A DNA stretch of 64,000 bases. It comes from Parvularcula marina. Lineage in GTDB: Bacteria > Pseudomonadota > Alphaproteobacteria > Caulobacterales > Parvularculaceae. This document shows positions 52,199 to 54,609 of the stretch, one piece after another (the first letter of the stretch is position 1; every line of letters begins with the position of its first letter). The stretch spans positions 1,175,001 through 1,239,000 of the forward strand of contig NZ_QUQO01000001.1 in assembly GCF_003399445.1 (NCBI RefSeq). Reading direction: 5' to 3'. Made by a program: the position numbers and the translations under genes. The notes beneath the pieces are model-generated. The model worked only from the letters and a program-made list of their open reading frames with translations, was not told where the DNA came from and ran no database searches.

Positions 52199-53770
52199 TC
52201 AAGGGGCGGGATATAAAATCGCCTCCGCATCAGCCATCAGGGCCCGGACTTCCGGCGAATAGCGACCCTCCGCCTTCAGTCTGTCGATAATGCCGCGGGC
52301 CTCCTCGGCATAGGCATCATCGCCCGTCCCGTCCGCTGTCCGCGCCAGCGCTTCAGCGAGCAATAACTCACCGCGGAGAACTGTCTCCTGTTCACCCGCA
52401 AGCCCCCGCATGATCGCCAACATCTCAATGAAGGTCGCCTTGGCTGCCTGATCATTGCCAACGGCTCGATACGCCCCGCCGGTCTGCGCAAGCGAGAACG
52501 CCACATCCTCCCGGAACTGAGCGTTCAGCGGATGGCTCGCCATCAGCAGACGGGAGATCTGAAGGCTTTCCCGATAATGGCTCAACGCCTCTGCCGGGCG
52601 CTCTAGTTCCATCAGGACGTCACCATACATCTCAAGCGACACAGCCAGATTTCGCTGCGCGCGCAGACTGTCCGGCTCATTGGTCGCCAACTGACGATCA
52701 ATCGCTAGGCTTTCGGCAAACAGAGCTTCCGCCCGCGGAAAATCTCCCGCCTCTAACGCCAGCTCTCCAGCACTTTCCAGTGCGCTAGACAGATCCCGGC
52801 GGCGCGCAGGCTCATCAGGTTGAGCGGCCAGTCTTTGCCGCCGCAGGACCAACACTTCCTCATGAGAGGTGCGAGCCGCATTCGGGTCTCCCAGCATCGC
52901 CTCAACATCGGCCAGTCCTTCCAGGGTATCCGCCAATATCAAAAGGTATTCATCATTACCCGGCTCCGCTTCATTCAGAGGACGGACAATCTGGAGGATC
53001 TGCTGGAAGCGCTGTCTTGCAAGCTCCAGCTCTCCAGCCTCAAATTCAAGGAAAGCAAGCTCACTCAATGCCGTCAGCCTTTTATCAAGGTCGTCGGCCA
53101 CATCAGCCGCCGAGGCGGCCGCTGCTTTCGCAGCCCTCACATCGCCGTTTTGCTCATATTCAAGTGCACTCAGCGCTATCCAGGTTTCATAATGTCCGGG
53201 GTCAATCCGAGCGGCCTGTTGATAAGCCTCAAGCGCGATCGCAGGATCACGGTCATAAGCCAACGCCCCAAGGTCACGCCACGCAATGGCGGCATCCGCG
53301 GAGAGGTCATCGGCTCGCGCCTGCAGCGCCCTAAAGCCCGTTCTGAAATCTCCATTTGCGATTGCCTGTGCCGCAGCAGGATCAGCATTCGCAACGCGCA
53401 TCGCTGCGTCTCGCCGCTCCGCCACACGTGAGGGCGATAACTCGGCAGGGTCTGAAGGCGCCGTTTGTTCAAGTAATTGCGCGATCATCAGACGCTGGGC
53501 GGCAAGCTCGCTCTGCAAGTCCTCGACCTGTTTTGAGGATGCCGTAGACGGCTGGAACATGCTGACGATCGTCGCAAAATTGCCGAAGAAAGACACTGCC
53601 CCCACAAAGGCAACGCCGGCTGCACTCCACCGGACAACCCTGCTCCTGATAAAATCCTGCACGATTTGGGAGCGTGTCTTGGGACTCAAGTCGTCAATCT
53701 GAGACTCGACGCCATCAGCAGGGAGATCTTCTTCCCCGGCCTTTTCCTCCTGCGTCTGATTTTCCGTCAC
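52199..53770 (-). CDS. Membrane-anchored TPR protein
   Basis: This 523-residue protein has an acidic cytoplasmic N-terminus and one transmembrane helix (about residues 48-70, VRWSAAGVAFVGAVSFFGNFAT). A short coiled coil follows (QVEDLQSELAAQRLMIAQLLEQ), then at least nine TPR-like helix pairs (for example AIALEAYQQAARIDPGHYETWIALSAL, ALSHYRESLQISRLLM). TPR arrays bind partner proteins; the periplasmic location is inferred from the anchor. It starts with GTG 53770 and shares the intergenic region with the first YdcH gene, which contains an FNR-type box at 53830-53843. Confidence 0.82.
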   Translation of the reverse strand: MTENQTQEEKAGEEDLPADGVESQIDDLSPKTRSQIVQDFIRSRVVRWSAAGVAFVGAVSFFGNFATIVSMFQPSTASSKQVEDLQSELAAQRLMIAQLLEQTAPSDPAELSPSRVAERRDAAMRVANADPAAAQAIANGDFRTGFRALQARADDLSADAAIAWRDLGALAYDRDPAIALEAYQQAARIDPGHYETWIALSALEYEQNGDVRAAKAAAASAADVADDLDKRLTALSELAFLEFEAGELELARQRFQQILQIVRPLNEAEPGNDEYLLILADTLEGLADVEAMLGDPNAARTSHEEVLVLRRQRLAAQPDEPARRRDLSSALESAGELALEAGDFPRAEALFAESLAIDRQLATNEPDSLRAQRNLAVSLEMYGDVLMELERPAEALSHYRESLQISRLLMASHPLNAQFREDVAFSLAQTGGAYRAVGNDQAAKATFIEMLAIMRGLAGEQETVLRGELLLAEALARTADGTGDDAYAEEARGIIDRLKAEGRYSPEVRALMADAEAILYPAP

Positions 53771-53829: not shown

Positions 53830-53843
53830 TTGATCTTTCTCAA
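53830..53843. promoter_or_regulatory. FNR/FixK-type box upstream of the first YdcH gene
   Basis: TTGATCTTTCTCAA matches the TTGA-N6-TCAA consensus of the FNR/FixK/ANR family. It ends 60 bp before ATG 53904. A -10-like hexamer CATAAG starts 21 bp after the box end (53864-53869), which fits a class II site centred near -41.5. It is also 60 bp from the divergent TPR gene. Confidence 0.65.
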
Positions 53844-53903
53844 ATCGCTGGCTCTTCCTCCCTCATAAGGGTGCAGTCAGATAAACAGTAGGAAGGTGCC
53901 CAG

Positions 53904-54146
53904 ATGACCCACACGCCACATGAGCTGTCCGAGGAATTTCCTGAATTCACCGACACCCTCCACCGGCTGAAAACCGGCGATCTTCATTTCCAGAAGCTCT
54001 CGGAGGAATATCACAGCCTTAACCGTGACATTCATCGCGCCGAAACGGACGTCGAGCCGACTTCTGATGACCATCTGGAAGAGATGAAAACGCGCCGCGT
54101 CAGGCTGAAAGACGAAATCTATACGATGCTTAAGGCTACCGTCTGA
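53904..54146 (+). CDS. YdcH/DUF465 family small protein, paralogue 1
   Basis: This 80-residue, mostly alpha-helical protein has the YdcH pattern: an N-terminal HELSEEFPEFTDTLHRLKTGDLHFQKL, the EYHSLNRDIHRAE turn, then EPTSDDHLEEMKTRRVRLKDEIYTML. DUF465 proteins are short two-helix proteins of unknown function, common in proteobacteria. A good ribosome-binding site (AGGAAGG) precedes the ATG. The next gene is a close paralogue, and both have FNR-type boxes at matching distances, suggesting induction under low oxygen. Confidence 0.9.
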   Translation: MTHTPHELSEEFPEFTDTLHRLKTGDLHFQKLSEEYHSLNRDIHRAETDVEPTSDDHLEEMKTRRVRLKDEIYTMLKATV

Positions 54147-54233
54147 GAGTTCGGGTTCTTCTCATCAGGAATATATCGGGAGCGGATGGGAAAATGCAGA
54201 AACGCTAAGGTTAATGCTTTTTCGACGGCCAAT

Positions 54234-54247
54234 TTGATCTGCGTCAA
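54234..54247. promoter_or_regulatory. FNR/FixK-type box upstream of the second YdcH gene
   Basis: TTGATCTGCGTCAA is a near-ideal alphaproteobacterial FnrL/FixK site (TTGAT-N4-GTCAA). It ends 62 bp before ATG 54310. A -10-like hexamer GCTAAC begins 21 bp after the box end (54268-54273), the same spacing as in front of the first paralogue. Confidence 0.78.
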
Positions 54248-54309
54248 AGCGCCTCGTCTCTTTTTCAGCTAACCGTCCGGTTCACGACTCTTTTGAAGAC
54301 GGATTGGGC

Positions 54310-54609
54310 ATGTCTCATACGCCATTTGAACTTTCAGAAGAATTTCCGGAATACGCGCCCCTTATTCAGAAAATGAACAAGGGAGATGCGCATTTCCAGC
54401 GTTTGACTGAGGCCTATCACACACTGAACCGATACGTTCATCGGGCAGAATCCGATATTGAGCCGACATCGCATCAATATCTCGAAGAGATGAAAGTCCG
54501 CAGGTCTCATCTCAAAGATGAGATCCTTCAGATGCTCAAGACCGGCAGCGAGAAGCCGGAATCAGACACGCCGTCTTCAGAAAATCCGTCAATTCATTCA
54601 GACTTCTGA
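54310..54609 (+). CDS. YdcH/DUF465 family small protein, paralogue 2
   Basis: This 99-residue protein is closely related to the preceding gene product. It shares the SHTP-x-ELSEEFPE start, then GDAHFQRLTEAYHTLNRYVHRAESDIEPTS and EEMKVRRSHLKDEILQMLK. It adds a polar, disordered tail of about 22 residues (SEKPESDTPSSENPS). The tandem copies are about 70 % similar by eye over the core. ATG 54310 is preferred over the in-frame TTG 54304. The upstream gap of 163 bp carries its own FNR-type box, so the gene has a separate promoter. Confidence 0.9.
   Translation: MSHTPFELSEEFPEYAPLIQKMNKGDAHFQRLTEAYHTLNRYVHRAESDIEPTSHQYLEEMKVRRSHLKDEILQMLKTGSEKPESDTPSSENPSIHSDF

Follow-up and report, generated by a model that had tools for sequence, protein, structure and literature searches.

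Two DUF465 genes and their upstream boxes

The window, i.e., the whole 64-kb stretch of DNA analyzed here (C1:1175001-1239000, in a genome of 3.40 Mb and 35 contigs), contains two DUF465/YdcH genes arranged head to tail on the plus strand. Gene 1 (53904..54146) encodes 80 aa and gene 2 (54310..54609) 99 aa, including an additional C-terminal tail. Their products are 60% identical, and both exceed the Pfam gathering cut-off for DUF465 (PF04325; 25 bits), with 65.6 bits (E 4.1e-18) and 48.4 bits (E 9e-13), respectively. Each gene follows an FNR/FixK box on the same strand that matches TTGA-N6-TCAA exactly. The spacings given by the original prediction were reproduced to the base: box 1 (TTGATCTTTCTCAA, 53830..53843) ends 60 bp before the ATG at 53904, and box 2 (TTGATCTGCGTCAA, 54234..54247) ends 62 bp before the ATG at 54310. 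The inner AT of the second half-site, as in a TTGAT-N4-ATCAA-like palindrome, is kept in neither box. On the minus strand, a divergent gene for a TPR protein (52199..53770, 523 aa) begins with a GTG located 59 bp from box 1.

The window contains three TTGA-N6-TCAA sites against a mean of 0.73 in shuffled sequence, so their number is mildly unusual; the unusual part is their placement. The third site, at 53219-53232, lies within the TPR coding sequence. Genome-wide, the pattern occurs at 34 places (14 for a reversed-pattern control), two of which stand 60 and 62 bp ahead of two adjoining DUF465 paralogues. The other two DUF465 genes of the genome (C1, 98.8 kb and 100.3 kb), also above the Pfam cut-off, have no box within about 1.5 kb.

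The pair had been attributed to a tandem duplication, and the phylogeny agrees: in a tree of 90 proteins and 80 columns, with many unresolved forks, the window copies are each other's closest relatives (support 99/97). Neither the alignment nor the tree includes locus L091, whose frame enters Ns. The terminal branch of copy 2 measures 1.05 and that of copy 1 0.08, with dN of 0.30 between them and dS saturated; copy 1 lies near the family consensus, and copy 2 is fast-evolving and diverging. It is plausible that the promoter was duplicated along with the gene, but the upstream regions of the two copies align around the box only, with a local score of 26 that was matched by 10 of 500 shuffles. 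The GC contents of the genes (0.53 and 0.46, against 0.595 for the window) and their pairing would fit acquisition jointly with the oxygen system described below. Tandem DUF465 pairs also occur in two genomes from another family of the order (G037, L157/L168; G041, L158/L169), where the second copy is strongly divergent and the pair has no FNR boxes.

Conservation of the box and its tie to FNR-like proteins

Conservation of the boxes in relatives, on which the original prediction had staked itself, was examined and found in samples of named genomes, of the class and of the order. The named-genome set comprised 80 loci, the best 80 of at least 542 confirmed candidates, with many congeners among them. 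In these best 80, a perfect TTGA-N6-TCAA stands 53-65 bp ahead of the gene in 49 relatives, the placement also seen for box 1, and a box matching at 7 of 8 positions stands at 54-65 bp in a further 10. Two relatives have a perfect box farther away, at 115 and 154 bp, and in 10 the gene lies just downstream of a same-strand ppk2 that itself carries a perfect box. The remaining 9 of the 80, i.e., Hyphomonas-type relatives, Ponticaulis and Xanthobacter, have no box of any of these classes. As a control, 250-bp windows were placed at random in the same loci; 9 of 1468 had a perfect box, and 118 of 1468 had 7 of 8 as their best match. E. coli ydcH is likewise without an FNR box and, given the boxless relatives, FNR control is not common to all YdcH genes. 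Among plasmid-borne DUF465 genes, no perfect box was seen ahead of the gene in the 4 records opened of 24 found, one of which carries no gene table. One of these plasmids, the conjugative Sphingopyxis plasmid pDB-2 (L153), carries its YdcH gene, without a perfect box, among genes for universal stress proteins, a cytochrome c and a calcium/sodium antiporter.

Evenly drawn sampling of the class (385 alphaproteobacterial genomes, gene called at E up to 1e-15) revealed the gene in 50 genomes. In 33 of these 50, a site that matches at 7 or all 8 positions lies 50-80 bp upstream, 19 of them perfect, compared with 102 of 8080 control windows, 14 of them perfect. The box was found in 32 of the 39 gene-bearing genomes that have an FNR/FixK-like protein and in 1 of the 11 that lack one; the Fisher p of 1.8e-5 is optimistic, since the genomes share ancestry and are not independent. 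When ten relatives from the order were added, the counts became 36 of 45 and 1 of 15. The exceptions are G178, which has a perfect box without an FNR-like match, and 7 of the 39 genomes that have an FNR-like protein and are unboxed at 50-80 bp. The FNR-like label was assigned manually to matches starting at query residue 15 or earlier, some of which are weak, for example G204 with 24% identity and G013 with a truncated gene; G382, whose gene start is miscalled, was scored as unboxed.

The order sample comprised 61 genomes, in which the gene was called at E up to 1e-8 and a close FNR was defined by at least 47% identity; the gene was present in 13 and a close FNR in 16. In all six genomes with both gene and close FNR the box is perfect; it lies at 55-60 bp in five of them and at 106 bp in the sixth. 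None of the seven genomes with the gene and without a close FNR has the box, one of these seven genes being truncated. Ten of the 16 relatives with a close FNR have no copy of the gene at all. Among nine congeners, the gene is missing in all and a close FNR is present in one (G004), so the whole oxygen system appears to be accessory within the genus. Genomes without the regulator appear to lack the presumed oxygen-responsive promoter or to have lost it.

Regulator, promoter and alternative readings

The genome's own FNR candidate is encoded on contig C2 (L020 ORF); it is a protein of 228 residues with a cNMP-binding and a Crp helix-turn-helix domain (PF00027 and PF13545) and cysteines at positions 5, 15, 18, 26 and 114. 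The ligands of E. coli FNR are C20, C23, C29 and C122 in the part of the report consulted (PMC5398030); C15, C18, C26 and C114 fit the same arrangement of C-x2-C, a third and a distant fourth cysteine, with a longer second gap, and they are expected to carry an Fe-S cluster. Beside the FNR gene lie genes for a radical-SAM protein, cytochrome oxidase subunit I, FixO, FixP, FixG and a P-type ATPase (Pfam matches, named by eye); the radical-SAM protein was identified by eye as HemN-like. Farther along the same locus stands an OmpW gene with a box of its own (TTGATCTGGATCAA, 59 bp to the ATG). The region C2:62266-74202 (L043) thereby brings together the FNR gene, the HemN-like gene, the cbb3 oxidase genes and ompW with its box. 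The FNR core regulon, in the portion of PMC2908626 consulted, includes OmpW, HemN, cbb3 genes and UspA. The window genes resemble the FnrL/FNR regulon of Alphaproteobacteria such as Rhodobacter sphaeroides, R. capsulatus and Dinoroseobacter shibae in their box and, judging by the relatives, may share its class II spacing; the same genome also holds that regulon's cbb3 oxidase, HemN-like gene and ompW. An FnrL ChIP consensus of (T/C/A)TGA-N6-TCAA is given for R. capsulatus in the consulted part of PMC4634722, and several of the 7-of-8 boxes fit it too.

Within the promoters, the hexamers CATAAG and GCTAAC, which had been proposed as -10-like elements 21 bases past the boxes, are indeed present, but not in the -10 register: in the 49 boxed relatives (from the best 80 of at least 542), the conserved -10-like signal begins at +23 after the box, with A at +24 in 38 and T at +28 in 34. 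A -10 element that begins at +23 has the spacing of a class II site centred at -41.5. Read in this register, the plus-strand hexamers are TAAGGG behind box 1 (53866..53871) and TAACCG behind box 2 (54270..54275), which would place transcription starts at about 53878 and 54282. Both lack the final T and are poor -10 hexamers. All 49 of these boxed relatives have a G at +2 past TCAA; box 2 has this G and box 1 has a T.

FNR, FixK and DNR have one target sequence in common (PMC2908626, consulted in part). Instead of an Fe-S FNR, the main reader of the boxes might be another member of the CRP/FNR family, a FixK- or Dnr-like protein that answers to a FixL relay or to nitric oxide. In this genome there are eight HTH_Crp-type matches, five above the cut-off, and many of the FNR-like proteins across the class are just 31-42% identical and were called from the match alone. 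However, a single protein of the genome combines an alignment with FNR over its full length with the four cysteines, the cysteine pattern differs in the two other CRP-like proteins that were read as complete ORFs, and within the order the box tracks the close FNR; we consider a different reader quite unlikely. Box 1 is palindromic and lies at a comparable distance from the GTG of the TPR gene, so it could in principle serve that gene, with the spacing to ydcH being incidental. This seems very improbable, as the -10 register toward the TPR gene reads CCTGTT, no recurrent TPR-like neighbour of ydcH was found among the inspected neighbour clusters of the best 80 of at least 542 relatives, and box 2 as well as the boxes of most relatives occur without a TPR gene. 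Box 1 could act on the TPR gene in addition to ydcH.

A further alternative is that the boxes arose by chance in intergenic DNA that is richer in AT; three sites were reached in 4 of 100 shuffles of the window, and the GC content of the genes is below that of the window. This is extremely improbable, because the position of the box is conserved across families and the box is associated with the regulator; random placement was rejected on the position-specific conservation.

Based on these comparisons, both DUF465 genes are very probably members of an FNR-type low-oxygen regulon with class II promoters, expanded by tandem duplication, and the oxygen reading is well supported. As oxygen falls, the four-cysteine FNR with its expected oxygen-labile Fe-S cluster would dimerise, bind each box at about -41.5 and activate a class II promoter there, with a separate short transcript for each gene. 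The cell would thereby produce, alongside the cbb3 oxidase and OmpW, two small cytosolic proteins of three helices, their genes having presumably arisen by local duplication within the lineage. As the same low-oxygen site precedes the gene in many relatives, the protein is probably part of the response to oxygen shortage. DUF465/YdcH proteins are widespread and have no assigned function, and a conserved oxygen-responsive promoter would supply a condition under which to search for a phenotype.

Neither Table 1 of PMC2908626 nor Table 1 of PMC4634722, the parts consulted, lists DUF465 by name, although the hypothetical proteins there could include it. A search of titles and abstract starts found no paper that ties the family to FNR. 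DUF465 is therefore probably a new member of the conserved FNR regulon, unnamed in earlier reconstructions and perhaps already among the hypothetical targets of published sets. One such target, rcc00901 of R. capsulatus (box TTGACACGGGTCAA), was considered as a DUF465 gene, and a pattern search of 394 genomes did not establish the link. This box was found 40-70 bp before an ATG in 14 genomes; in one of them, G680, it stands directly ahead of a DUF465 gene, and the G680 stretches read appear, by eye, roseobacter-like and unlike R. capsulatus.

Protein fold and gene neighbours

The AlphaFold model of the gene 1 product has a mean pLDDT of 90.5 and helices at residues 7-11, 13-25, 27-47 and 55-79. 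Sequence comparison gave a single convincing relative of solved structure, HP1242 of H. pylori (PDB 1ZHC; E 1.2e-7), which is also the top Foldseek match of the model (probability 1.00, 37% identity), at a weak E of 0.021; beyond it, Foldseek returned generic helical hairpins, none with E < 0.001. The gene 1 product is thus predicted to share the helical hairpin fold of HP1242, which the consulted part of PMC3397514 describes as all-helical, resembling a coiled coil and functionally uncharacterized. Twenty columns are invariant in an alignment of 81 rows, including H28, Y36, N40, H44, R45, E47, E51, P52 and L68-K69-D70. In contrast to E. coli YdcH and HP1242, the window subfamily carries an N-terminal M(S/T)H(T/V)PHEL...EFP segment, in addition to the FNR box. 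In the consulted portions of three reports, E. coli ydcH is linked to OxyR and peroxide in one transcriptome (PMC4207228), appears in a table on pH and oxygen (PMC1626474) and has its product listed as a stationary-phase protein (PMC6904343). Our best guess is that YdcH, as a helical hairpin, serves as an adaptor or in a chaperone-like manner, binding a partner while cells survive at low oxygen with limited energy.

A first candidate for such a partner comes from the ppk2-ydcH pairs. In the 10 named loci with this arrangement (from the best 80 of at least 542), the two genes are separated by 9-39 bp; the PPK2 identity rests on Pfam for 4 and on tblastn for all 10 (78-84% to L143). In an eleventh pair, that of G213, ppk2 is likewise preceded by a perfect box. 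The ppk2 gene of R. capsulatus, RCC02684, is a direct FnrL target that is upregulated 2.25-fold (PMC4634722, consulted in part), and an FNR-boxed ppk2 is similarly found in the 11 roseobacter-type loci, with ydcH shortly downstream. By contrast, the ydcH genes of the window stand alone, and the ppk2 of their own genome sits with another DUF465 paralogue. There, overlapping same-strand ORFs at C1:97205-99023 (L054) encode that paralogue, distinct from the window genes, together with a cyclophilin-type isomerase and PPK2; no FNR box was seen in the stretch read. From these two arrangements PPK2 is the best candidate partner of YdcH, the second of them lending indirect support as it involves another DUF465 paralogue. 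A more specific proposal, on balance unlikely, is that this DUF465 subfamily is a conserved core member of the low-oxygen programme of Alphaproteobacteria and acts with PPK2, as a helical-hairpin partner that would help PPK2 or its clients to maintain nucleotide pools when oxygen is short; DUF465 and PPK2 are coupled twice independently, in the boxed roseobacter pairs and in the overlapping DUF465-cyclophilin-PPK2 set of this genome.

Otherwise, gene neighbourhood was rejected as a clue to function, as it appears to reflect lineage synteny with the exception of ppk2 in roseobacters and of pyruvate dehydrogenase genes in some Rhizobiales. Across about 1.5 kb of flanking DNA in the 50 class loci, there were two recurrent clusters of non-DUF465 neighbours, in 3 to 5 genomes each; a further cluster from 17 genomes is, by eye, apparently an antisense frame of ydcH. 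In four loci (L076, L098, L127 and L131), the boxed ydcH lies inside a pyruvate dehydrogenase cluster, with E1-type genes on one side and a dihydrolipoamide dehydrogenase-like gene on the other, with Pfam assignments made on one example of each.
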